This document shows, piece after piece, positions 10,060 to 35,449 of a DNA stretch of 36,518 nucleotides. The stretch's first letter is position 1. Every line of letters begins with the position of its first letter. The position numbers were made by a program, and so were the translations under genes. Source of the DNA: a virus; IMG/VR virus record IMGVR_UViG_3300044609_000696, positions 1 through 36,518 of that record; one strand, given 5' to 3'. Under the pieces are notes generated by a model. That model had not been told where the DNA came from and ran no database searches. It was given only the letters and a program-made list of their open reading frames with translations.

Positions 10060-10974
10060 CTAAATGACAGGCTCCTCAGCAGGGGCAGCAGGCTCCTCGA
10101 CCGCAGGCTCAGTAGCGGCAGGCTCTTCTGCCACAGGCTCAGCCGCAGGGGTCTCCACCACGGGCTCGGTAGCGGCAGGCTCCTCAACAGGGGCCTCGGC
10201 CACAGGCTCCTCGGTTACCACTGCAGGCTCCTCAACAGCAGCAGGCTCCTCGGTAGGCGCCTCAGCGGCAGGCTCGGTGATCACCTCAGCGGCAGGCTCT
10301 TCGGTCACCACGGCGGGCCCCTCAATGGGGACCTCAGCCACGGGTTCGGCCACAGGCTCCTCAACAGCGGCGGGCGCCTCAGCGGGAACCTCGGCAGCCG
10401 GCTGCTCGACCACAGGCTCTGAGACCACCTCAGTGGGCGCCTCTGCCACGGGCTCCTGTACGGCGGCAGGTTCAGCTACCGGCTCCTCGGCTGCAACCGG
10501 CTCTGCAACCACCTCAGCTGTAGGCTCCCCTGCCACAGTTGGCTCGGGCATCGGGCAGGCGGGTTCCTCAGCCACCACCTCGGCGGGAGGCTCGGTGACG
10601 ATCGGCTCCTCGGGCAGGGTCTGATCAGTGCCCTGGGGAACCTCGGGGGTGACCGTTTCAGGCTCGGGGGTCACCTCTGGCATCACGCCTTCGGGCTCGA
10701 CGCTCGGAACGGTCGGGGTCACCGGTTCACCCGCCGGGTCGAGCACCCGGATATTGCTGGTCTTGAAGCCTTCGGTTGGGTCGATCAGCTCCACATCGCC
10801 GCCCAGGGGCATCTCGCTGCAGGTGTCCCGGAAGTTCAGGAAGTCCCGGAACCGCTTCGATGTGCTCGTTGCCTCGGCCTTCAGCCGTTCCCAGATCACA
10901 TGCAGTTCGTGGTCCCTGGCAGCGTCCGTCATCTCAAAGTCAATAGCACCAGCCCATTCTGCCTGCGCAGCCAT
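10060..10974 (-). CDS. Pro/Ala/Glu/Val-rich repeat protein of the tail operon
   Basis: A 304-residue protein from the ATG at 10974; an ATG 15 bases upstream lies inside a hairpin loop and is less likely. The first ~90 residues look folded (AEWAGAIDFEMTDAARDHE, then RFRDFLNFRDTCSEMPLGG). From about residue 95 to the end it is an imperfect repeat of short units such as EEPVAE and VVTEEPAAE, strongly acidic and probably unfolded. It sits between the major tail gene and the chaperones, a place often taken by tail decoration or tube-associated proteins. I do not recognise the N-terminal domain. Codon use follows the neighbours, and the complementary strand is open by mirror effect only. Confidence 0.75.
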   Translation of the reverse strand: MAAQAEWAGAIDFEMTDAARDHELHVIWERLKAEATSTSKRFRDFLNFRDTCSEMPLGGDVELIDPTEGFKTSNIRVLDPAGEPVTPTVPSVEPEGVMPEVTPEPETVTPEVPQGTDQTLPEEPIVTEPPAEVVAEEPACPMPEPTVAGEPTAEVVAEPVAAEEPVAEPAAVQEPVAEAPTEVVSEPVVEQPAAEVPAEAPAAVEEPVAEPVAEVPIEGPAVVTEEPAAEVITEPAAEAPTEEPAAVEEPAVVTEEPVAEAPVEEPAATEPVVETPAAEPVAEEPAATEPAVEEPAAPAEEPVI

Positions 10975-10975
10975 G

Positions 10976-10998
10976 AAAAAGCCCCGCACATGGCGGGG
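10976..10998 (-). terminator. Intrinsic terminator after major tail gene, abutting the next start
   Basis: On the minus strand GCCCCGC and GCGGGGC form a G+C stem with a short loop, followed by TTTTT, then C and the ATG at 10974. It ends the abundant major-tail message. The GGGG of the stem is also the only Shine-Dalgarno-like sequence before the next gene, so the same hairpin could both terminate transcription and hide the ribosome site on readthrough RNA. Confidence 0.7.
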
Positions 10999-13713: not shown

Positions 13714-13738
13714 CCTGCGGAGGGGTATACCCTATGAT
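13714..13738 (+). promoter_or_regulatory. Dispersed element copy and promoter before the HNH gene
   Basis: CCTGCGGAGGGGTATACCC (13714-13732) matches the dispersed consensus CCTACGCAGGGGTTGACCC at 15 of 19 positions and contains the palindrome GGGTATACCC. TATGAT at 13733-13738, with TTGCGC 18 bases upstream, forms a plausible promoter whose -10 box lies only six bases before the ATG at 13745. Confidence 0.45.
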
Positions 13739-22157: not shown

Positions 22158-22465
22158 GCCTCGGGCTTGGCAGGCTTGATGGTCCAGGAGCTGCTGACCT
22201 TCTTGGTGGCGATGCCGTCGAGGACTTCGAGTTCCTGGAGCTGCTTGACAGCCGGCGAATAGGCGTAGGTGGTGCGAGTGGTGAGGGTTGCGGAGCCGAA
22301 GGTGGTGGAGAGCTTGTCTGGGATGTTGCCGGCTTCTAGGTGCTGAGAGAGCTGGGCTTTGTAGTCGTCGATGAAGGATTGGGTGGTCTTGATGAAGGCT
22401 TGTGCCTCGGTGATGAGACGGATGAGATCTTCTGGTGGCGTGAGGGGGCTAGGGGCGGCGGTCAT
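22154..22465 (-). CDS. Small helical protein, unknown
   Basis: A 103-residue protein overlapping RusA by four bases and the upstream small gene by 17. The first half is helical (EDLIRLITEAQAFIKTTQSF, then DDYKAQLSQHLEAGN); the second half has FGSATLTTRTTYAYSP and ends in a Lys-rich tail with VSSSWTIKPAK. This looks like small phage proteins encoded beside recombination genes, but I do not recognise a named family. The overlaps on both sides make the reading frame secure. Confidence 0.7.
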   Translation of the reverse strand: MTAAPSPLTPPEDLIRLITEAQAFIKTTQSFIDDYKAQLSQHLEAGNIPDKLSTTFGSATLTTRTTYAYSPAVKQLQELEVLDGIATKKVSSSWTIKPAKPEA

Positions 22466-22649
22466 GGCGTGCGGGGTCGAGGGCTAAGCAGCGGGACAAG
22501 TGATGGACGCAGTTGGCGTGGACGAAGGGGTCGCTGAGGTAATCAACCCAGAGGTCAGTGGGCGGGTAGTAGGTGGTCTCGATGCCGTCGTCCTCTGAGA
22601 GGCCGCTGTGCGGGGCAGGAGCAGCGTCCTGAGCCTCTTCAGGTGTCAT
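22449..22649 (-). CDS. Small acidic protein, unknown
   Basis: A 66-residue protein from the ATG at 22649: MTPEEAQDAAPAPHSGLSED at the start, then YYPPTDLWVDYLSDPFVHAN and a His/Arg-rich end. The frame stays open up to 22967, but the upstream part competes with a better small gene and with the nuclease gene's end. The start lies four bases after the preceding small gene's stop, and its end overlaps the next gene by 17 bases. Function unknown. Confidence 0.5.
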   Translation of the reverse strand: MTPEEAQDAAPAPHSGLSEDDGIETTYYPPTDLWVDYLSDPFVHANCVHHLSRCLALDPARHDRRP

Positions 22650-22653
22650 GGGC

Positions 22654-22815
22654 CTAGGGGCCTGTCCAGAGGGCCTGTGCAGAGCCCTGCGCAGGGCTAT
22701 GGCCAACAGGTACAGGGCGATGAGGGTTGTTGCGGCCGTGCTCGATAGCAGCGAGAGCAAGCGCGAGGCCAAGGAGGAAGCCAAAGGTGTTGGCCTTGTG
22801 GGGTAGGCGAAGCAT
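22654..22815 (-). CDS. Small membrane protein, unknown
   Basis: A 53-residue protein starting MLRLPHKANTFGFLLGLALA, which gives one likely membrane helix (about residues 10-24), followed by a polar Pro/His-rich tail. A dispersed element copy (22861-22875) lies 45 bases upstream, which supports the start of a transcription unit here. An alternative frame (start 22829) runs through the same stretch, so the call is only moderate. Confidence 0.4.
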   Translation of the reverse strand: MLRLPHKANTFGFLLGLALALAAIEHGRNNPHRPVPVGHSPAQGSAQALWTGP

Positions 22816-22860
22816 GGGGATGGGGCCATGGGAGGGCGGAGACGGGCCAACAGTGCCAGA

Positions 22861-22875
22861 GGGTCAACCCCTAGG
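22861..22875 (-). promoter_or_regulatory. Dispersed element copy
   Basis: CCTAGGGGTTGACCC on the minus strand. Together with flanks it shares 18 identical bases with the copy at 30536-30552, although the surrounding genes are unrelated. It sits about 45 bases before the small membrane protein gene. Confidence 0.55.
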
Positions 22876-23523: not shown

Positions 23524-23837
23524 CAGAACGCAAACTCCTCTGCCGGTGCTGGCAGCTCAGGGGTCAGGGGCAAGTCGAGAGGCTCGGCAGGGGTAGCGCC
23601 CTCGACTGGGGTGAAATCCCGAGGATCAGAAACCTGAACGACTGGCTCAGGGTCAGAGACGCGCAGCAAGTTGACGTACTCGGGCTGTGGGTATTTCGGG
23701 TGGTTGAGGCGGAAGGTCTTGGCGTTCTCCTGCCAACCCATTGACGGGGTATCGAGTTGCTCGACGGTGACGTAGCCGCTGGCGACCATGCGACGCAACA
23801 GGATGCGCACCTCGGCGAGGTCAAAGGCCTTTTTCAC
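23523..23837 (-). CDS. Unknown protein with winged-helix-like start and Pro-rich tail
   Basis: A 104-residue protein from a GTG at 23837 that overlaps the upstream gene's stop (GTGA). The N-terminal part (FDLAEVRILLRRMVASGYVT, VEQLDTPSM) has the look of a small helical DNA-binding or partner domain. The C-terminal 45 residues are Pro/Glu-rich and end in FAF. It is coupled to the nuclease gene downstream, so it may be its partner. I do not recognise a family. Confidence 0.65.
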   Translation of the reverse strand: MKKAFDLAEVRILLRRMVASGYVTVEQLDTPSMGWQENAKTFRLNHPKYPQPEYVNLLRVSDPEPVVQVSDPRDFTPVEGATPAEPLDLPLTPELPAPAEEFAF

Positions 23838-24418
23838 AGCACCCCCTGCAGCACGGGGTTGGTGGTGGGGCCGTCCTCGTCAACGAAACGGCCACCGCTG
23901 AACACGCGGGCGGCAGGGTGCTTGTGCTCGGCCTGCGCAGGGGTAGCGCCCTTGGGCGCCTTGAACTGCTCGTAGAGGCGAACAGAGATGCCTTTCCAGA
24001 GGCCATTGCTTGCAAGCCTCAGCTGCTCTTCAACGACCGCATCGCCGTAGAGCTTCTGAAGCTTCTCCAGCTCGGTCATCAAAAGCTTCCAGCCCTGCTC
24101 GCTCTTGCTCCCCCTCTTGACCCTCCAAAACTCCTCGATCAATTCCTGGTGCTTAAGGAGCGATGGGTGTATTGATTTAGGTTTTAAAGAAGTTTTAGAA
24201 GAAGAAGAAGAATTAGAAGCCCTGCGGGCGGCTGGTTCTGCCATTATTTGGGGCATCGGGTCGCTTGTCAAGGGCTGCCAGCCTGTGGCGATGGCGTGTT
24301 TGATGAGAAGCCGCGCCACACCTTGCTTTGTGAGGATCCCTTCGGTTTGTGAAGCGAGCGCCTCAAGGTGCAGGTTCTCCTCCTCGCTGATCCTGATGTT
24401 TAGCTGCTGTGAAGCCAT
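23834..24418 (-). CDS. Ribbon-helix-helix protein with C-terminal helical domain
   Basis: A 194-residue protein. Residues 1-50 (ASQQLNIRISEEENLHLEAL, then GVARLLIKHAIATGW) fit a ribbon-helix-helix DNA-binding fold. A Ser/Lys linker (SNSSSSSKTSLKPKS) leads to a helical part (LIEEFWRVKRGSKSEQGWKL) and an unstructured end. It is the first gene after the terminator at 24482-24503 and begins the nuclease operon. A promoter-like TTGCGC, 17 bases, TACGCT lies upstream and overlaps an element copy, so it may regulate its own operon. Confidence 0.72.
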   Translation of the reverse strand: MASQQLNIRISEEENLHLEALASQTEGILTKQGVARLLIKHAIATGWQPLTSDPMPQIMAEPAARRASNSSSSSKTSLKPKSIHPSLLKHQELIEEFWRVKRGSKSEQGWKLLMTELEKLQKLYGDAVVEEQLRLASNGLWKGISVRLYEQFKAPKGATPAQAEHKHPAARVFSGGRFVDEDGPTTNPVLQGVL

Positions 24419-27572: not shown

Positions 27573-28565
27573 TTAGTAGCCAGGGACGAATGAAAGGCCT
27601 AAGCGGTCGGGATCAAGGAATGCAGCTTTGGTGGAGTATTCGGCGTCTGCTTCAGCTTTTGTCCACTTATCCACGCAAACCATCCGACCCAGTGGGTTGC
27701 CATTCGCATCCACTGGTGTGGCTGTCATTGCAAAGAACCATGAATTGCGAGCTAGCTGAGCAAACTCACTCAGTCGCTTTGTGGCGAAGTGGGCTTCGTC
27801 TGAGACGATCAAATCAAAGTTGTTGAAGGCTGCGGAGAGTGCTTCTGGGCTCATTGTGTTCAGTGTGGCTACGCACGCCACTACCACATCCGCCTTGAGG
27901 ATCTCTTTGTTCCTGAAGTGCTCGTCGGACGACGCTTTGGACACCTTTGGCTTGGGTACGCCCAGGTACTTGTGAACGTCGTCAGCAATGCCGCGCACAA
28001 GCTGAGTGCGGTACTGGTCTTTGGGGGTCAGCACCAGAATCTTTCGGACGCGCTTGTAGTGCTCACCCAGCTCACGCAGACGAATCCTGTTCAACCCATA
28101 GGCAAGTGCGTGTATGCCTAGGGTCTTGCCCGTCCCCGTGTGCCAGACAACGGTATAGATCGCGCCAGAAGTCGAGAAGAACGGTCCCGAAAACCATTCG
28201 CTGTAATACGGATCGTCGGGCTTGCCCATGGCGAGCCTGCGCTGCGGAACGCGAAGTTGCTTGAGCTGCGCAGACGAAAGCTGGCGATCCCAAAAGCAAC
28301 TGCCGTGCTTCAGGCTCGGATCAGGACGGTTGTACTTCTTGCTGTTGCAGGGCCTGCAAAGGATTTGCCAGTTGCTGGGGTCGTTGATCAGCTTTAGGTC
28401 AAGGCTCTGAGGAACGAGGTGATCAACCGTGAGGTTCATCTCAGTGCCGCAATGAGCACAGGCCGGAGAAGAGAGCCCTGCGAGCCAGGCGTTGAAGACC
28501 TTCCTCCTGGTACACCACGTCGGGAAGCTGACCTGATGGGGAATCAACTCATGCACAAGGGTCAT
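27573..28565 (-). CDS. HNH nuclease fused to SF2 helicase first lobe
   Basis: A 330-residue protein. Residues 36-75 form an HNH zinc domain: CAHCG, then LTVDHLVPQSL, then NWQILCRPCNSKK. Residues 140-150 hold Walker A (VVWHTGTGKTLG), 251-260 the DEAH box (DLIVSDEAHF), and 281-284 motif III (TATP). The chain stops soon after (FVPGY), before motifs IV-VI, which are in the next gene. Such nuclease-helicase combinations occur in restriction-like and phage replication enzymes. It is the first gene of a leftward operon and diverges from small rightward genes across a 59-base gap with an element copy. No primase or polymerase accompanies it. Confidence 0.82.
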   Translation of the reverse strand: MTLVHELIPHQVSFPTWCTRRKVFNAWLAGLSSPACAHCGTEMNLTVDHLVPQSLDLKLINDPSNWQILCRPCNSKKYNRPDPSLKHGSCFWDRQLSSAQLKQLRVPQRRLAMGKPDDPYYSEWFSGPFFSTSGAIYTVVWHTGTGKTLGIHALAYGLNRIRLRELGEHYKRVRKILVLTPKDQYRTQLVRGIADDVHKYLGVPKPKVSKASSDEHFRNKEILKADVVVACVATLNTMSPEALSAAFNNFDLIVSDEAHFATKRLSEFAQLARNSWFFAMTATPVDANGNPLGRMVCVDKWTKAEADAEYSTKAAFLDPDRLGLSFVPGY

Positions 28566-29313: not shown

Positions 29314-29694
29314 TCAGTTGGTGATCAGGGCAGCGGTGACATAGCCATCGGCCAAGGTGCATTTGGCGTAGCTGTCGTTGTATCCGCCAAAGCCGTTGCG
29401 GGCTCGGAAGTGCATCAGGCCCCAGCCGTCTTGGCTTTCGTCCCCGGCGTACTGGATTTGCTGGAAGGAGTCGGGATCGCGCAGCAGAGACTTCACGGCC
29501 TGCTCGCAGGCGTAGCGGCTAACGCTGTTGTCGGGCGCGGCAGGGGCGTCTGGCAGGTTGCTTGTGAAGGAAGCGGCTGCCACGGTCATCACAAGACCGA
29601 CAACAGCGGCCACTCCCACCAGGGGGAGGCGGCTGTTGCCCTGGGCCTTGAAGGCGCGTTCGCGCTGGGCGTTGGCGAGTTCGGTGTTGTCCAT
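29314..29694 (-). CDS. Membrane-anchored periplasmic protein, unknown
   Basis: A 126-residue protein: a short basic cytoplasmic start, one membrane helix (about residues 24-44, LPLVGVAAVVGLVMTVAAAS), then a periplasmic part with YACEQAVKSLLRDPDSFQQI and FRARNGFGGYNDSYAKC. The two Cys are placed to pair. This resembles small exported proteins found near phage and plasmid accessory genes. With the next gene it forms a two-gene leftward unit carrying envelope proteins. Element copies lie upstream at 29713-29725 and 29742-29757. Confidence 0.72.
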   Translation of the reverse strand: MDNTELANAQRERAFKAQGNSRLPLVGVAAVVGLVMTVAAASFTSNLPDAPAAPDNSVSRYACEQAVKSLLRDPDSFQQIQYAGDESQDGWGLMHFRARNGFGGYNDSYAKCTLADGYVTAALITN

Positions 29695-29712: not shown

Positions 29713-29757
29713 GGGGTAGACCCCTCCGATACGCGAATCATGCCCCTACCCCTGCGC
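29713..29757 (-). promoter_or_regulatory. Two element copies before the envelope genes
   Basis: On the minus strand GCGCAGGGGTAGGGGC (29742-29757) and AGGGGTCTACCCC (29713-29725) both match parts of the dispersed element. The second ends 19 bases before the ATG at 29694. Confidence 0.45.
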
Positions 29758-29807: not shown

Positions 29808-30059
29808 GTGCCACGCTGGGGCAGTCACCACCCCCCGCCTGTGCCCGCCGATCAGCGCCAGCTCAACGTCCCCCTGCCCACCCCACTGGTTGAGGCGGTG
29901 AAGGCCAGGGCCGCAGAGGAGGGCGTCACCATGGGCGAACTGGTAGAGCGGCTGCTCACTGCAGCCATGGAAGGCTGGGAGCCGGCGCCGGGCATCGCGG
30001 ACCAGCTGGCGGACCACGAGGCAAGGCTCAGGCAGCTCGAGGAGCGCCTGGGGCTATAG
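29808..30059 (+). CDS. Ribbon-helix-helix protein with coiled-coil end
   Basis: An 83-residue protein from a GTG at 29808; a second in-frame GTG at 29841 would give 72 residues and starts right at the conserved part. That part reads RQLNVPLPTPLVEAVKARAA, then GVTMGELVERLLTAAMEGW, a strand-helix-helix pattern of RHH regulators. The end (LADHEARLRQLEERLGL) is a short coiled coil. An element copy (29795-29810) overlaps the first start and supplies CAGGGG as ribosome site. Its own element may be its operator. Confidence 0.65.
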   Translation: MPRWGSHHPPPVPADQRQLNVPLPTPLVEAVKARAAEEGVTMGELVERLLTAAMEGWEPAPGIADQLADHEARLRQLEERLGL

Positions 30060-30103: not shown

Positions 30104-30121
30104 GCGTCAAGGGTTGACCCC
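30104..30121 (+). promoter_or_regulatory. Element copy directly before a start codon
   Basis: GCGTCAAGGGTTGACCCC ends at the base before the ATG at 30122. The AAGGG could act as ribosome site and the GGGTTGACCC palindrome as an operator. Confidence 0.45.
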
Positions 30122-30277
30122 ATGAATAGCGATTACTGGCGGCGCGGCAGTCAGCGCCTATCGGCCACCGTCCCTGCCTCAGTCCTGCAGCAGCTCGAAG
30201 CCAGGGCCATGCAGGAAGGGCGCAGCCTCAGCAATCTCGTGGCGATGCTTCTGGAGCGGTCGCTTGAGCGGCGCTAG
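30122..30277 (+). CDS. Small ribbon-helix-helix protein
   Basis: A 51-residue protein: MNSDYWRRGSQRLSATVPAS, then VLQQLEARAMQEGRSLSNLV and AMLLERSLERR. This is a textbook short CopG/Arc pattern, with a strand (RLSATVP) followed by two helices. It begins right after an element copy. Its stop codon shares the palindrome CTAG with the stop of the convergent membrane HTH gene (four-base overlap). Confidence 0.75.
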   Translation: MNSDYWRRGSQRLSATVPASVLQQLEARAMQEGRSLSNLVAMLLERSLERR

Positions 30278-30507
30278 GCCGTTGCCCACCTCCGCACGGT
30301 GGAGGGGCTGACGCCGTAGCGGTCGGCGATGTTGGCCCAGGTATTGCCCCGCTGGCGCAAGCGGCCAATGCGAGAAGCGCGGCTCTCAGTGGCCCAGAGC
30401 AGCAGGTGAATGGGCAGGAGCAGCAGCACTGCAGCCCATGCCAGAAGGCAGGTGGTGGTCATTGTCGGGAATGCTGTGGTGGTGACAGGCGGCGCCGTAG
30501 CTGCCAT
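30274..30507 (-). CDS. Membrane-anchored helix-turn-helix protein
   Basis: A 77-residue protein. One membrane helix covers about residues 19-39 (CLLAWAAVLLLLPIHLLLWA). Right after it comes RIGRLRQRGNTWANIADRYG and VSPSTVRRWA, a resolvase/homeodomain-like helix-turn-helix. So the DNA-binding domain would face the cytoplasm, tied to the membrane. It diverges from the XRE-like gene at 30650, and two element copies lie in the 142-base gap, one 28 bases before its start. TGTATAG at about 30526-30532 on the minus strand is a possible extended -10 box. Confidence 0.65.
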   Translation of the reverse strand: MAATAPPVTTTAFPTMTTTCLLAWAAVLLLLPIHLLLWATESRASRIGRLRQRGNTWANIADRYGVSPSTVRRWATA

Positions 30508-30535
30508 CTCCTGTTCACCGCTTCACTATACACCA

Positions 30536-30550
30536 GGGTCAACCCCTAGG
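30536..30550 (-). promoter_or_regulatory. Element copy, candidate operator of the membrane HTH gene
   Basis: CCTAGGGGTTGACCC on the minus strand, with an extended -10-like TATAGT a few bases downstream. Identical with flanks over 18 bases to the copy at 22861. Confidence 0.55.
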
Positions 30551-30609
30551 CAGCCAGGCGAAGACTGCAGCAGTGACGCTGCACCTATGCAGCGCATGAT
30601 GCCAATTCC

Positions 30610-30625
30610 GGGGTAGACCCCTAGG
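30610..30625. promoter_or_regulatory. Element copy in the divergent control region
   Basis: GGGGTAGACCCCTAGG on the plus strand, containing the near-palindrome GGGGTAGACCCC. It lies 24 bases before the XRE-like gene and 60 bases from the copy at 30536-30550. Two copies in one divergent gap is the arrangement of a phage operator region. Confidence 0.55.
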
Positions 30626-30649
30626 TTGGGCAGAGCATCACTCGTAGCC

Positions 30650-31327
30650 ATGGCAGGAATCCCCGCCGAATATCAGGCATATCGCAACGACCTGGGCAAG
30701 GCCATCGCCCGCTGGATGAAATCAAACAGCTGGTCGCAGCAGACCTTCCACGACTGGGCCGTCGCCGCGGGCAGCGAAGGGCCTTGGAATAGCCAGGTAT
30801 CCCTGTGGCAGCGCGGAAAGCTTGACCCCAAGTCTCATTTCTGGGTGGGAGTGGGCCGCTTCAATGCCGCTGTTGCCGCACAGGACTTCCCCTATGCCAC
30901 CAGCCGGAGCCTGCGCGATCGCCTCACTAACGCCGAGCCGTTCCTCACCGCCGATGGCAGGCAGGCCAGCGCCGCAGACTTCTTCGCCATGTTTATTGGC
31001 GAGCAACCCATCAACGACTGCTACCTGACCCCCGAGCCCGAGCCCGTTCTCACCGACGCGGACGGCAAAGCACTCAGTGAGCTGTGCCGCGATGCTTTCC
31101 GTCGTACCGCCACCAGCCAGATGTTCAGCCCTAAGGAGGCGTGGGACAGCCTGGCCCCACACTGCAGCACCATGAGCAGCGAAGAGATTGCCCGCTTCCG
31201 TGAGGTGCTGGCCGGCTGGTCGGACTGGAGCGGCGAGGAGGCTACTGCGCTGTCGGCACCGGGTCAGCGGAGCAAGCCTGCGCGGGCGCTGGATAACTGG
31301 GGTGGCGGTCTTGCAATTTCTGCATAG
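30650..31327 (+). CDS. XRE-like protein, candidate phage repressor
   Basis: A 225-residue protein from the ATG at 30650; a TTG at 30626 lies on top of an element copy and is rejected. The N-terminal 70 residues (LGKAIARWMKSNSWSQQTFH, WAVAAGSEGPW, QVSLWQRGKLDPKSHFWVGV) have the spacing of an XRE-type helix-turn-helix. The C-terminal part is unfamiliar (FFAMFIGEQPINDCY, RFREVLAGWSDWSGEEA) and lacks the Ala-Gly cleavage site and Ser/Lys dyad of LexA-type repressors. Divergent from another DNA-binding gene across two operator-like copies, it is the best candidate for the lysogeny regulator. That role is inferred. Confidence 0.65.
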   Translation: MAGIPAEYQAYRNDLGKAIARWMKSNSWSQQTFHDWAVAAGSEGPWNSQVSLWQRGKLDPKSHFWVGVGRFNAAVAAQDFPYATSRSLRDRLTNAEPFLTADGRQASAADFFAMFIGEQPINDCYLTPEPEPVLTDADGKALSELCRDAFRRTATSQMFSPKEAWDSLAPHCSTMSSEEIARFREVLAGWSDWSGEEATALSAPGQRSKPARALDNWGGGLAISA

Positions 31328-31336
31328 CTTCTGGCT

Positions 31337-31377
31337 CCTACGCAGGGGTTGACCCTTCTGCAAAACAGGCATAGGGT
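31337..31377 (+). promoter_or_regulatory. Best element copy with promoter for the ERF operon
   Basis: CCTACGCAGGGGTTGACCC (31337-31355) is the fullest copy of the dispersed element. TTGACC (31349-31354) inside it, a 17-base spacer and TAGGGT (31372-31377) form a plausible promoter for the recombination and sigma-factor operon starting at 31401. A protein bound to the element would cover the -35 box. Confidence 0.5.
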
Positions 31378-31400: not shown

Positions 31401-31616
31401 ATGCCGCAACGAGTCACTCGTGCAGAATCCGCCGACCTCTTCTTCAAGGCGGCCACCTTCATCGAGGCCATCGACACAGCCATCGACGAAGCCGACGCCC
31501 TCATCACTTCCATTGCTGAAACCATCAGCTGGGAGTCGTTCACCCCAGATCAACGCGCATCCCTTGCCCAGTGGCATGGCGGCGTGCGCGAAGCCCGCCA
31601 AGCCCTACGCAAATGA
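31401..31616 (+). CDS. Small helical protein at start of ERF operon
   Basis: A 71-residue protein, acidic and helical: MPQRVTRAESADLFFKAATF, then IDTAIDEADALITSIAETIS, and a basic end. Its stop overlaps the ERF start (ATGA). It may be a partner of the annealing protein. Family not recognised. Confidence 0.65.
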   Translation: MPQRVTRAESADLFFKAATFIEAIDTAIDEADALITSIAETISWESFTPDQRASLAQWHGGVREARQALRK

Positions 31617-32320
31617 CTGAATCACAGATTGCAGGCGCCCTGGCCAAGTTCCACAAGGCAGTCGGCACCATCCACAAGAACAGCAAGGCCCAGTACGGCA
31701 ACTTTGCCTCCCTGGCCGATGTGCTCAGCGCAATCTCCGGCCCCCTGTCTGAATCCGGTCTTGCCGTGACCCAGACCTTTATCCCTACGGAGGGCTGCAC
31801 GCTGCTCCGCACCACCATTCGCCACACCGGCGGCGAACTGGTTGAGAGCGATGTGCCGCTGATCGAGGTAAAGGGGCGCAACGCCCTTCACGACTGGGGT
31901 GGTGCCGTCACCTATCAGCGCCGCTTTGCCCTGTTGGCAGCCCTCAACCTTGCCCCTGGCATGGAAGAGGACACCGACGGCGACAGTGCTGACGACAAGC
32001 CCGCACCAGCCCCCTCAAAGGCACCAGCGTCTAAAGCTGTGAAGGCAGCCCCTACCCCTACGCAGGATGCTGCTAAGCCACAGGGGTCTGCGCCCGCTAC
32101 TCCTTCTGTGGTCCCACCGATCGACCCCGCTGAACGGAAGGAAATCCTCAACCTCGTGCAGGAAATGATGAAATCCAACCGCACGGCCTTCGATCGCTTC
32201 GTCGCCGAATACAAGGCCGCATTCAACGTCCCTGCCGACACGAAGATCAGCGACCACTTCCAGGAGCAACAGCACGCGGAGTTCGCCCAGCAGTTCTTCG
32301 CTTCCCTCCCTCCATCCTGA
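31613..32320 (+). CDS. erf: ERF-family single-strand annealing protein
   Basis: A 235-residue protein from the ATG at 31613 (overlapping the preceding stop). Residues 1-115 show the ERF pattern: IAGALAKFHKAVGTIHKNSK, YGNFASLADVLSAISGPLSE, GLAVTQTF, and GAVTYQRRFALLAALNLAPG. A Pro/Ala/Lys linker (about 120-165) follows, and then a helical C-terminal domain (RKEILNLVQEMMKSNRTAF). ERF proteins anneal complementary single strands and help circularise phage DNA. The next genes follow with overlaps, including an SSB-like protein that may work with it. Confidence 0.9.
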   Translation: MTESQIAGALAKFHKAVGTIHKNSKAQYGNFASLADVLSAISGPLSESGLAVTQTFIPTEGCTLLRTTIRHTGGELVESDVPLIEVKGRNALHDWGGAVTYQRRFALLAALNLAPGMEEDTDGDSADDKPAPAPSKAPASKAVKAAPTPTQDAAKPQGSAPATPSVVPPIDPAERKEILNLVQEMMKSNRTAFDRFVAEYKAAFNVPADTKISDHFQEQQHAEFAQQFFASLPPS

Positions 32321-32545: not shown

Positions 32546-32722
32546 GTGTCGGATGCCAGCCAGGTTTCAACAGCCTCTCAGTCCGACGCCCTCTGCTTTG
32601 CTTCCATTGACGCAGCGCTGATCCGCGCACGGCAGCTGGCTGATCTCTTCCCTGAGATCACCGTTGATGCGGTCCCGGTTGGCTACCCCCTCGGCCATTC
32701 ACTGATGCGCCGCCGTGGATGA
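32546..32722 (+). CDS. Small protein of the ERF operon, unknown
   Basis: A 58-residue protein from a GTG at 32546: MSDASQVSTASQSDALCFAS, then IDAALIRARQLADLFPEITV and a short basic end. It fills the gap between the previous gene and the RHH gene and overlaps the latter by eight bases. The frame is open further upstream, but there it mirrors the preceding gene, so I use the first start after that gene's stop. Function unknown. Confidence 0.45.
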   Translation: MSDASQVSTASQSDALCFASIDAALIRARQLADLFPEITVDAVPVGYPLGHSLMRRRG

Positions 32723-32957
32723 TCAGCAATTCCACCAGCACATGGCTGACCTCTACAACCAGCAGGCACGCACCACGCCAGCGCCACGCCCTGCTGGCGT
32801 CGACCCCCAGGAATGGAAGAACCGGCACCTAGTCAGCGCCAAGCTGCCCGCCGGTCTTTACTCCGATTTCATGGCCTTCTGCCGGCAACACAACTTCAGT
32901 GTCAACACCGGCATCAAGGCAATCCTGTCCCACCACTTCACCAAAGCAAATGGCTGA
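32715..32957 (+). CDS. Ribbon-helix-helix-like protein
   Basis: An 80-residue protein from a GTG at 32715. The second half (RHLVSAKLPAGLYSDFMAFC, then RQHNFSVNTGIKAILSHHFT) has the strand-helix-helix order of RHH regulators. The first half is polar and probably flexible. It overlaps the SSB-like gene by eight bases. It could regulate the operon in which it lies. Confidence 0.62.
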   Translation: MDDQQFHQHMADLYNQQARTTPAPRPAGVDPQEWKNRHLVSAKLPAGLYSDFMAFCRQHNFSVNTGIKAILSHHFTKANG

Positions 32958-33240
32958 CTTCGCCCCCGACGCCTTCACCCTGTTCACCACCTTCAACAAG
33001 TCCAAGCTGGAAGGCAAGACCGACGAATACTGGGCCAAGAGCGAGTGGCCCATTGATCAGATCAACGCCCTCCACGCCTGGGCCAACAGCCAGACCTCTA
33101 CCACCACCAACCAGAAGGGCGAGGTCTGCGTCACCGTGAATCAGAAGCTGCTGCCCCGCACCAGCAAGGCCGGTAATGACTACCTGCTCGGCATCACCTC
33201 TGATGCCAAGCCCGCCAACAACAGCGACATGCCCTTCTGA
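32950..33240 (+). CDS. Small protein with SSB-like acidic tail
   Basis: A 96-residue protein from the ATG at 32950: MADFAPDAFTLFTTFNKSKL, WPIDQINALHAWANSQ, QKGEVCVTVNQKLLPRTSKA, YLLGITSDAKPANNSDMPF. The C-terminal NNSDMPF is close to the D-D-I-P-F tip by which bacterial SSB recruits partner proteins. The body is too short for a full classical OB fold but could be a compact one. In an ERF operon a single-strand binding or SSB-mimic role is plausible. It overlaps the RHH gene upstream and the sigma gene downstream (TGATG). Confidence 0.62.
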   Translation: MADFAPDAFTLFTTFNKSKLEGKTDEYWAKSEWPIDQINALHAWANSQTSTTTNQKGEVCVTVNQKLLPRTSKAGNDYLLGITSDAKPANNSDMPF

Positions 33241-34157
33241 TGTCTGCCACCCGCGACAGCATCGGCTGGTTCCTTGACCACGCCGGTCGTATCCCTCTCC
33301 TCACCAACGAGGAAGAGATCATCTTGGGCCGCAAGGTCCAAGATCTGCAGGCCCTCCTCGCTGAAAAGCCAGAAGGGCCCTACTCCAAAGAGGAAACCAT
33401 CACCCTCCGCCGTGGCAAGCGTGCCAAGGAGCGCATGGTGAACGCCAACCTCCGCCTGGTGGTGAGCGTTGCCAAGCGCTACCTACACGCTGCCCAGCAC
33501 CTTGAACTGGCTGATCTGGTACAGGAGGGCATGTTCGGCCTGATCCGTGGCGTCGAGAAGTTCGACCCTGAGCGTGGCTACAAGGCGTCCACCTACCTCT
33601 ACTGGTGGATTCGCCAGGGCATCAGCCGCGCCCTCAGCCAGCAGGATCGGAACATCCGCCTGCCCATCAACGCGATTGAGTGCCTCAACAAGGTGCGGAA
33701 CCTCATCCCCGCGTTCTGTGCCGAACACGGCAGGCCCCCCACTCCACAGGAGTGCGCTGATCATTGCGAGGTCCAGCTGCACATCATGCAGCACTACCTC
33801 AAGCACGCTCAGCGGCCTAGCAGCCTCAACGGCACAATCAAGACCAGTAACAACTCCTCAGTGCAGCCTGAGCTGATGGAAATGATTCGCGCTCTTGGCC
33901 CTGAGCCGATGGAGGTGCTTGAGGTTGACGATGGGATCACCAACCTGGACGGATGGCTCGAGCACCTCTCTGATCGTGAGCGCGAAATCCTTTCTCATCG
34001 CTATGGGCTAGATGGAAAGGGTGGAATGTCACAGACCAGCACAGGCAAGATCCTTGGCGTTTCCCGCCAAGCGGTGCAGCAGGCGGAAGCCAAGGCGTTG
34101 AATCGCCTTCGCCTCCACGCTGGCCTTTCTGGCCGCCTAGCCCCTACCGCTGCGTAG
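33240..34157 (+). CDS. Phage-encoded sigma-70 factor, cyanobacterial group-2-like
   Basis: A 305-residue sigma factor. Region 1.2 is DSIGWFLDHAGRIPLLTNEE; regions 2.1-2.4 run from NLRLVVSVAKRYLHAAQHLE through DLVQEGMFGLIRGVEKFDPE to YLYWWIRQGISRALSQQ and IRLPINAI. Region 3 follows, and region 4 is LSDREREILSHRYGLDG then SRQAVQQAEAKALNRLR. Compared with host primary sigma, region 4.2 has Ala and Gln at positions usually Arg-Val-Arg, which touch the -35 box. So its promoter choice may differ. It ends the ERF operon and could switch host polymerase to late genes. Region 1.1 is absent, as in group-2 sigmas. Confidence 0.92.
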   Translation: MSATRDSIGWFLDHAGRIPLLTNEEEIILGRKVQDLQALLAEKPEGPYSKEETITLRRGKRAKERMVNANLRLVVSVAKRYLHAAQHLELADLVQEGMFGLIRGVEKFDPERGYKASTYLYWWIRQGISRALSQQDRNIRLPINAIECLNKVRNLIPAFCAEHGRPPTPQECADHCEVQLHIMQHYLKHAQRPSSLNGTIKTSNNSSVQPELMEMIRALGPEPMEVLEVDDGITNLDGWLEHLSDREREILSHRYGLDGKGGMSQTSTGKILGVSRQAVQQAEAKALNRLRLHAGLSGRLAPTAA

Positions 34158-34177: not shown

Positions 34178-35449
34178 CTACGACGGATCGCGGCTCGCGC
34201 CCTGGCGCAAGACGACTTTGACCGTGCTGGGATCCCCGACATAGAGGATCTCGTCAACGAACTCGAGCAAGAGTGCCCGCAGCTCTTCTTCGTCCGCCAG
34301 GTCAAGGACACCAGGCCGAGCCAACACGGCCGCCAAGCCCTCCCAGTTCGGCGCTGACGGCAAGGGGGTCTGCAGCTGCTGTTGCAGATCCCTGATTGCC
34401 CCCTCCAGCCCTGATCGCCCTCGCGCCTGCTTCTCCAGCAGGTCGGCCAGGTCATCCTGCATTTCAAGTTGCTGCTGCGTCACCACTGGCTGGGGTGGCG
34501 TGGCGGCAATTTTTGCCATTTCGGCATGGCAGTGCATCAGCGCGGCAATCGCCTGATCTCTGATTTTCCACTCCGCCAGGCCGCGTCCATACCACTGGCA
34601 GTGGAGGTTGGTGCATTTCAACCGTGGCTTCCCCGCGGCCATCGTGTAGTGGAGCCAGCGCTGGCACGATTGACAGCGCACCAAGCCAGACAGCAACCGC
34701 TTGCGGCGTGGGGCTCTTGTTCCTTTTTCGCGCCTGCGTTCGATCACGGCCATCGCGTCGGCATACTCCTGTGCGGTGATCAGCGCCTCCACCTGCATCG
34801 CTTGGCCGGCAACGATGCCCCGCAGGATCGGATTACTGGCCCACCTGCGGATGCCACGGGTAGACCAGTCGTAATCGTTCAGCCGCACCGTTTTGGATAG
34901 GTTGAACTCGCTGGCCTGGAGCCGCCGCCACAGCAGCTGGGCCTCGGCGAACTCAACAGGATGTGGCACCACATACTGCCCGTCGTAGGCATAGCCGAAA
35001 GGGACGCGGCCACAGGCGTAGTAGCCCGCCGCCTTGCGGCGCTGCAGGCCGTTCTTGATGTTGATGGCCTTGATCTGGCTATCAACCTCGTTGATCGTGG
35101 CCATCACGCCGGTCATCAACCGGGCAGCTGGATCGGCAATGTCGCCAGGGGTGCCGTCGAGGAACTGGACCTCAACCCGCTTGCGGCTGCAGATCCTCAG
35201 AAAGCCGGTGACATCTTCACGGCGAGACAGGCGCGACTGGCTGACGGCAATGACCTTGGTGACACGACCCGCGGCCACCAGGGCCTGCAACTCATCCCAG
35301 CCTGGGCGGCGACTGCCTTCGCGAAATGCGGAACCACGCTCCTGGATGACCCGCTGGCAGCCCGCTGCGGCCAGCTGCTCGACCTGAGCTTCGATGGAAA
35401 TGGCCTGCTCGTCGGATCGAGTGGAAACGCGGGCGTAGCCAACGATCAC
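34178..35449 (-). CDS. Serine recombinase / phage integrase, XisF-like
   Basis: A 423-residue large serine recombinase from a GTG at 35449. The catalytic domain (1-140) has GYARVST with the nucleophile Ser9, then SQSRLSRREDVTGFLR and AARLMTGVMATINEVDS. The recombinase domain follows (GYYACGRVPFGYAYDGQYVV, then RGIRRWASNPILRGIVAG). A zinc ribbon lies at about 265-290 (CQSCQRWLHY, then LKCTNLHCQWYG), with a coiled coil at the C-terminus (about 315-365). It resembles cyanobacterial XisF-type excisases and would integrate or excise the phage. It is convergent with the sigma gene; the attachment site should lie close to one end of the gene. Confidence 0.92.
   Translation of the reverse strand: MIVGYARVSTRSDEQAISIEAQVEQLAAAGCQRVIQERGSAFREGSRRPGWDELQALVAAGRVTKVIAVSQSRLSRREDVTGFLRICSRKRVEVQFLDGTPGDIADPAARLMTGVMATINEVDSQIKAINIKNGLQRRKAAGYYACGRVPFGYAYDGQYVVPHPVEFAEAQLLWRRLQASEFNLSKTVRLNDYDWSTRGIRRWASNPILRGIVAGQAMQVEALITAQEYADAMAVIERRREKGTRAPRRKRLLSGLVRCQSCQRWLHYTMAAGKPRLKCTNLHCQWYGRGLAEWKIRDQAIAALMHCHAEMAKIAATPPQPVVTQQQLEMQDDLADLLEKQARGRSGLEGAIRDLQQQLQTPLPSAPNWEGLAAVLARPGVLDLADEEELRALLLEFVDEILYVGDPSTVKVVLRQGASRDPS

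Follow-up and report, generated by a model that had tools for sequence, protein, structure and literature searches.

In the C1 regulon of phage P1, operators occur singly at many operons across the genome and are asymmetric 17-bp sites. The CI switches of lambda and P22 combine an XRE DNA-binding fold with palindromic operators in a divergent gap, these operators forming tripartite OR/OL clusters, with a repressor that has a self-cleaving C-terminal domain and a conserved Cro-like divergent partner. In mycobacteriophage L5 and its Cluster A relatives, one repressor, gp71, serves an operator at Pleft, which overlaps the early promoter, and ~24 stoperators that are dispersed, mostly intergenic, asymmetric 13-mers oriented one way with respect to transcription (PMC5712189, PMC9283540); the L5 relative D29, a repressor-deletion derivative, has lost the repressor gene and retained well-conserved stoperators (PMC5712189). 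For cyanobacteria, mitomycin C is reported to induce viruses from natural populations and integrase-bearing siphoviruses exist, S-LBS1 being a carrier of an integrase, and no inducible prophages were found in Synechococcus and Prochlorococcus isolates (PMC6157547).

The locus described here lies in the window, which is an entire IMG/VR virus record (36,518 bases). Like L5 and the Cluster A phages, it appears to have one repressor, many dispersed and mostly intergenic sites and an operator overlapping the early promoter, and one close relative of the window, G012, is like D29 in keeping the sites with no repressor gene found. Unlike those of L5, the sites number about six per genome and lie in core promoters, and the protein matches no library family (no PHROG or NCBIfam hit in the searches bearing on homology to gp71). 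Because the sites are palindromic 12-mers rather than asymmetric, the circuit falls outside the L5 system; the same palindromic character separates it from P1, with which it shares single operators dispersed over many operons. By analogy, it may nonetheless work as immunity systems with dispersed operators do in L5 or P1. With the lambda/P22 type it shares an XRE fold (predicted here), palindromic operators in a divergent gap and, likely, autoregulation. It differs from that type in that the operators are dispersed singly with no tripartite clusters, no self-cleaving C-terminal domain is detected and there is no conserved Cro-like partner, the divergent gene varying among relatives. Two features of temperate circuits are present, a repeated operator overlapping early promoters and an integration module. 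The elements of the region are:

30650–31327, plus strand: XRE-like gene, 225 aa, candidate immunity repressor, with homologues in 8 other viral records
30274–30462, minus strand: membrane-HTH protein, likely 62 aa; the ORF extends to the ATG at 30507 (PF13384, E 2.3e-7)
22860–22871: operator AGGGTCAACCCC, ahead of the leftward operon that runs towards RusA, TerS and TerL
29713–29724: operator GGGGTAGACCCC, upstream of leftward membrane/secreted protein genes; promoter not convincing
30110–30121: operator AGGGTTGACCCC, immediately 5′ of the ATG of the 51-aa RHH gene; promoter not convincing
30535–30546: operator AGGGTCAACCCC, occupying the leftward promoter's spacer
30610–30621: operator GGGGTAGACCCC, upstream of the XRE-like gene (putative autoregulation); every relative has a site there, that of L037 being weak (2 mismatches)
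31345–31356: operator GGGGTTGACCCT, containing the early-operon −35; found in 8 of 9 XRE-bearing loci
30525–30553, minus strand: leftward promoter-like site CTGCCT-N17-TATAGT (CTGCCT 30553–30548, TATAGT 30530–30525)
31349–31377, plus strand: early-operon promoter TTGACC-N17-TAGGGT, with the same offset and N16–17 spacing in 8/8 loci tested

The earlier note on this DNA had seen two operator-like copies in a gap (30508–30649) between divergent XRE-like (30650–31327, plus) and HTH (30274–30507, minus) genes, and a third copy past the XRE-like gene, before the ERF operon. Both genes and all three copies (30535–30546, 30610–30621 and 31345–31356) are present, and three further copies, at 22860, 29713 and 30110, had been missed. 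The repeated element is a 12-bp near-palindrome, GGGGTNNACCCC. Between 29600 and 31450 five copies match it to within one mismatch, whereas 2000 dinucleotide shuffles average 0.10 such matches and never exceed 3, and it ranks first among the 1024 possible 5+2+5 palindromes in that region. Over the whole window with two mismatches allowed, the excess is modest (36 versus 22), so the signal is local. Six of the ten window matches with at most one mismatch are intergenic, intergenic DNA making up ~9%, and the copies inside coding sequence are probably due to chance. A host LexA site was considered and rejected, the element being unlike the cyanobacterial LexA box. Elsewhere in the window, GGGGTATACCCT at 13722–13733 lies 12–23 nt 5′ of the in-frame ATG (13745) of a plus-strand ORF among minus-strand structural genes and is possibly a seventh operator.

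The XRE-like protein and alignments built from it, used as queries against viral contigs, yielded eight further records, all partial (L002/L032, L030, L031, L033, L034, L035, L036 and L037), with a common gene order, subject to local variation, of XRE-like, small 71-aa-type, ERF-like, RHH-like, SSB-like and sigma genes. When the switch regions of these eight relatives were pooled, leaving the window out, the same palindrome again came first, with 25 matches against 6 for the best unrelated motif. The nine XRE-bearing records together hold 46 matches against 9 for a reversed control, whereas seven isolate cyanosiphoviruses in which a search for the XRE-like gene found none (S-CBS1, S-CBS3, KBS-S-2A, PSS2, P-HS2, S-H1 and MED4-117; 328 kb) hold 1 against 4. 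The motif recurs upstream of the XRE-like gene in the relatives and before the ERF/SSB-like/sigma operon in 7/8, L036 being the one without the early-operon site, and the 22860 site is kept at the homologous place in L002 (102), L030 (3509) and L060/G012 (7068). A separate pattern scan of viral contigs for paired operators gave 25 contigs; besides L028, which is the L002 contig, only L024 shared any of the tested genes, and the rest were set aside as chance hits. L024, a cyanophage-like contig, carries four GGGGTTTACCCC-like palindromes within 136 bp (L024:520-655) inside a fragment of a RepA-like helicase gene; these may be repeats of an origin or sites for a repressor there.

The window's large terminase is closest to those of the cyanobacterial siphoviruses P-HS2/MED4-184, KBS-S-2A and S-H1 (40–42% identity), its RusA to that of S-CBS3 (52%) and its sigma factor to those of S-CBS1 and S-CBS3 (39–40%), relatives that suggest a picocyanobacterial host. 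The Synechococcus siphoviruses S-CBS1, S-CBS3, KBS-S-2A and S-LBS1 have related gene content (TerL, RusA and a cyanobacterial-type sigma factor), and ERF-like, RHH and membrane-HTH genes occur in S-CBS3 as well. Unlike the window, the three of these that were searched (S-CBS1, S-CBS3 and KBS-S-2A) have no operators, no XRE-like gene and no detected integrase.

The operators are embedded in promoters in two ways. At the early operon the −35 hexamer lies inside the operator, at an identical offset in 8/8 loci tested. The window, L030, L031, L035 and L042 have TTGACC, 17 bp, then TAGGGT or TATGGT, and the AT-richer group of L033, L034 and L037 has TTGACC, 16 bp, then TAATAT. At several leftward promoters the operator instead fills the 17-bp spacer, a geometry found again in L031 (TTGCGC-N17-TATAGT), L035, L042 (TTGACG-N17-TATAGT) and L054. 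In either placement a bound protein would be positioned to block RNA polymerase. A promoter search at the XRE-like gene's own site and at those at 22860, 29713 and 30110 gave nothing better than the control.

The XRE-like identity given to the 225-aa protein in the earlier note receives no support from Pfam, PHROG, NCBIfam or PDB sequences, but the predicted structure agrees with it. An AF2 model (pLDDT 89, 7-sequence alignment) places an XRE fold in residues ~5–120, and the structural neighbours of this N-terminal domain are nearly all XRE proteins (C.BclI, Z 6.5; C.AhdI, 6.2; HigA, 6.2), with P22 c2 at 4.8 and lambda CI at 4.2. As Z values below 8 are weak, the model supports a five-helix XRE/lambda-repressor-like HTH domain at the fold level, and because they are modest it is evidence of fold and not of function; a Foldseek comparison of the model with PDB and BFVD returned nothing below E 0.001. 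The HTH residues SQQ..HD, NSQ and RG are invariant in 9/9 XRE-like sequences, across two divergent groups that have a common operator, as expected if all nine proteins read the same half-site. The C-terminal 100 residues have only five invariant positions among the nine sequences and gave no Foldseek match under E 0.001. A second HTH there was considered and rejected, the weak XRE-like similarities (best Z 4.3) being too low. The region is predicted to be all-helical and Pfam detects no S24/LexA peptidase, in agreement with the earlier remark that a LexA-type self-cleavage domain is absent, so induction by RecA-stimulated self-cleavage is unlikely. The XRE-like protein is most likely the operator binder of the window phage.

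We consider it probable that the window phage is a temperate cyanobacterial siphovirus and that the XRE-like protein serves as its immunity repressor, controlling its own gene and silencing dispersed operons. The computed basis of this reading consists of the conserved sites, their overlap with promoters, their co-occurrence with the XRE gene and an integrase, and the predicted XRE fold; from these we infer binding, dimerisation, repression and lysogeny, as well as the order of events and the role of the sigma factor. The lysis-lysogeny switch that had been read from the layout is well supported as a repressor/operator switch, though one wider than the gap, with at least six sites at early, accessory and late operons, and is not supported as a two-partner, membrane-tied arrangement. 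The genes that would be governed by it, and the integrase, are:

22449–22829, minus strand: small membrane protein, first gene behind operator 22860
29314–29694, minus strand: 126-aa membrane protein behind operator 29713
30122–30277, plus strand: 51-aa ribbon-helix-helix (RHH) protein, putative regulon member (RHH_5, E 7.9e-12)
31401–31616, plus strand: 71-aa conserved first gene of the early operon
31613–32320, plus strand: ERF single-strand annealing protein (PF04404, E 3.7e-13)
32715–32957, plus strand: 80-aa RHH-like protein of the early operon, conserved with the operon and a rival candidate for operator binder
32950–33240, plus strand: putative SSB-like small protein with an acidic DMPF tail
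33240–34157, plus strand: phage sigma factor of cyanobacterial RpoD/SigA type (Pfam sigma-70 regions), ending the early operon
34178–35449, minus strand: serine recombinase/integrase (PF00239, E 1.7e-23; phrog_95 integrase, E 1.3e-36)

An XRE-like dimer would bind GGGGTNNACCCC sites that either lie across the −35 or occupy the −35/−10 spacer, and would thereby silence the early operon (71-aa gene, ERF, RHH, SSB-like and sigma factor), the leftward accessory genes, the membrane-HTH gene included, and the operon leading to RusA/TerS/TerL; operators flank its own gene. When repression is lost, recombination functions and the phage sigma factor would be expressed, and the latter would then help drive late genes, so that it could couple early derepression to late transcription. 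The adjacent integrase would support integration. The sigma gene is conserved in all relatives, and its product matches TIGR02997 with E 1.5e-79, below that model's cut-off. In L036 the 51-aa RHH gene and the membrane-HTH gene form one leftward operon.

Several other observations concern the gene content of the window. The first genes behind the leftward operators at 22860, 29713 and 30535 all encode small membrane or secreted-looking proteins. RHH or RHH-like proteins are encoded at 29808–30059, 30122–30277, 32715–32957 and 23834–24418, and the 51-aa protein among them resembles the YlcI/YnfO family, below cut-off. On the minus strand, 27573–28565 encodes an HNH nuclease domain fused to the N-terminal part of a DEAD/ResIII helicase that looks cut short, and 10060–10989, in the structural gene block, encodes a 309-aa protein with a Pro/Glu/Val/Ala repeat over its C-terminal two thirds.

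An integrase is present near the sigma gene in 8/9 XRE-bearing records, of the serine type in the window, L002, L030, L031 and L035 and of the tyrosine type in L033, L034 and L037; none was found within the 16.6-kb contig of L036. The serine and tyrosine types are split between two groups that have the same repressor circuit, and the L030 record has a second, tyrosine-type match at G002:C1:15273-15713. The same Pfam search detected no integrase in the seven XRE-less isolates, but it misses some phages, since PSS2, one of the seven, is reported to encode an integrase (PMC6157547). KBS2A is reported to be without integration elements (PMC3751600).

The alternative that survives best is that the XRE-like protein is a Cro-like or early lytic autoregulator, with lysogeny maintained by another repressor or with no stable lysogeny at all. 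The gene lies upstream of the early operon and is co-directional with it, two scans of genome contigs found no lysogen and no prophage copy of the gene, and T7-like cyanophages integrate without stable lysogeny and have no repressor homologues (PMC8776855). We nevertheless regard it as unlikely, for the sites also lie at accessory and late operons, the XRE gene co-occurs with integrases of two types and no other conserved repressor candidate was found in the loci. A tblastn search of 50,697 phage records gave no match to the XRE-like protein.

Our identification of the XRE-like protein as the binder must also accommodate G012 (L042 plus L060), which keeps the operators and in whose 17.2 kb no XRE homologue was found. 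Its early-operon and membrane-HTH promoters, each with an operator, directly face each other. By analogy with D29 the repressor may have been lost naturally; the gene could also be in the missing part, or another protein could bind. Because G012 keeps operators with no XRE gene, a repressor-loss variant or another binder must be allowed. RHH proteins bind short palindromes, and the 80-aa RHH-like protein, whose gene is in every operator-bearing locus including the XRE-less G012, is the most likely candidate for another phage protein that binds the operators, the XRE-like protein then having a different role. That the operators flank the XRE gene and not the RHH gene, and that the similar-looking gp32 of S-CBS3 occupies the same position in a genome without operators, make such an assignment quite improbable.

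The membrane-HTH protein had been described in the earlier note as a 77-residue protein with a membrane helix and a C-terminal HTH, and as an unusual partner that might tie the switch to the membrane. Helix and HTH are both there, the latter as a homeodomain-like PF13384 match above cut-off and the former as one strongly hydrophobic N-terminal helix, preceded by no positive charge and followed by six to eight; the length is not, because the family alignment puts the start at the ATG at 30462, giving ~62 aa. The role as switch partner is not supported by the relatives, in most of which the divergent gene differs. The membrane-HTH gene adjoins the XRE gene in only 3/9 loci (window, L002 and L036); the divergent leftward gene has a signal-peptide-like start in L030 and L035, encodes an HTH_17 protein in L037 and encodes a 130-aa protein, followed by a RepA-like gene, in L033/L034. 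The family is common, moreover, at places without operators: a scan found it in 19 viral loci, most with no operator or a stray single match, and no XRE gene was found in the operator-poor loci tested, S-CBS3 (gp41) included. These comparisons suggest that the protein is probably cargo of the regulon and not a conserved partner, and a membrane-linked lysis-lysogeny decision is unlikely.

There is a small chance that the membrane-HTH protein recognises the same operators, or the repressor, such that the circuit is read out at the membrane and that in phages like L042 it has replaced the soluble repressor. That it is a partner regulator at these sites, coupling the decision to membrane state, is highly improbable: its gene does follow an operator in the window, L002, L036, L042 and L054, and in L042, where no XRE gene intervenes, two operators are all that separates it from the early operon opposite, but it is missing at this place in 6/9 XRE-bearing loci, and the ~15 other family loci, S-CBS3 gp41 included, have at most scattered single operator matches. 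A speculative role, by analogy, would be to tether phage DNA to the membrane. Phage phi29 p16.7 has a homeodomain-like C-terminal region. This membrane protein interacts with ssDNA and also with the terminal protein (PMC4974454), and like the membrane-HTH protein it is small, with one membrane helix and a C-terminal nucleic-acid-binding region, although the membrane-HTH protein is much shorter (~62 aa) and a replication role for it is unsupported. Finally, that the motif is a promoter part read by the phage sigma factor and no repressor site is scarcely credible, for although motifs coincide with promoters and every operon includes the sigma gene, the motif forms a palindrome and is differently placed relative to −35/−10 in the early-operon and leftward promoter classes, and S-CBS1, S-CBS3 and KBS-S-2A have the sigma gene and no motifs.

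Dispersed, promoter-embedded palindromic operators that accompany a conserved XRE-like repressor candidate are thus well supported by sequence comparison. The XRE-like family has no match in Pfam, PHROGs or NCBIfam and could provide a new marker for temperate potential. Lysogeny has long been puzzling in small unicellular cyanobacteria; with a conserved repressor candidate and its defined operators available from nine viral records, the question of dormancy becomes directly testable.
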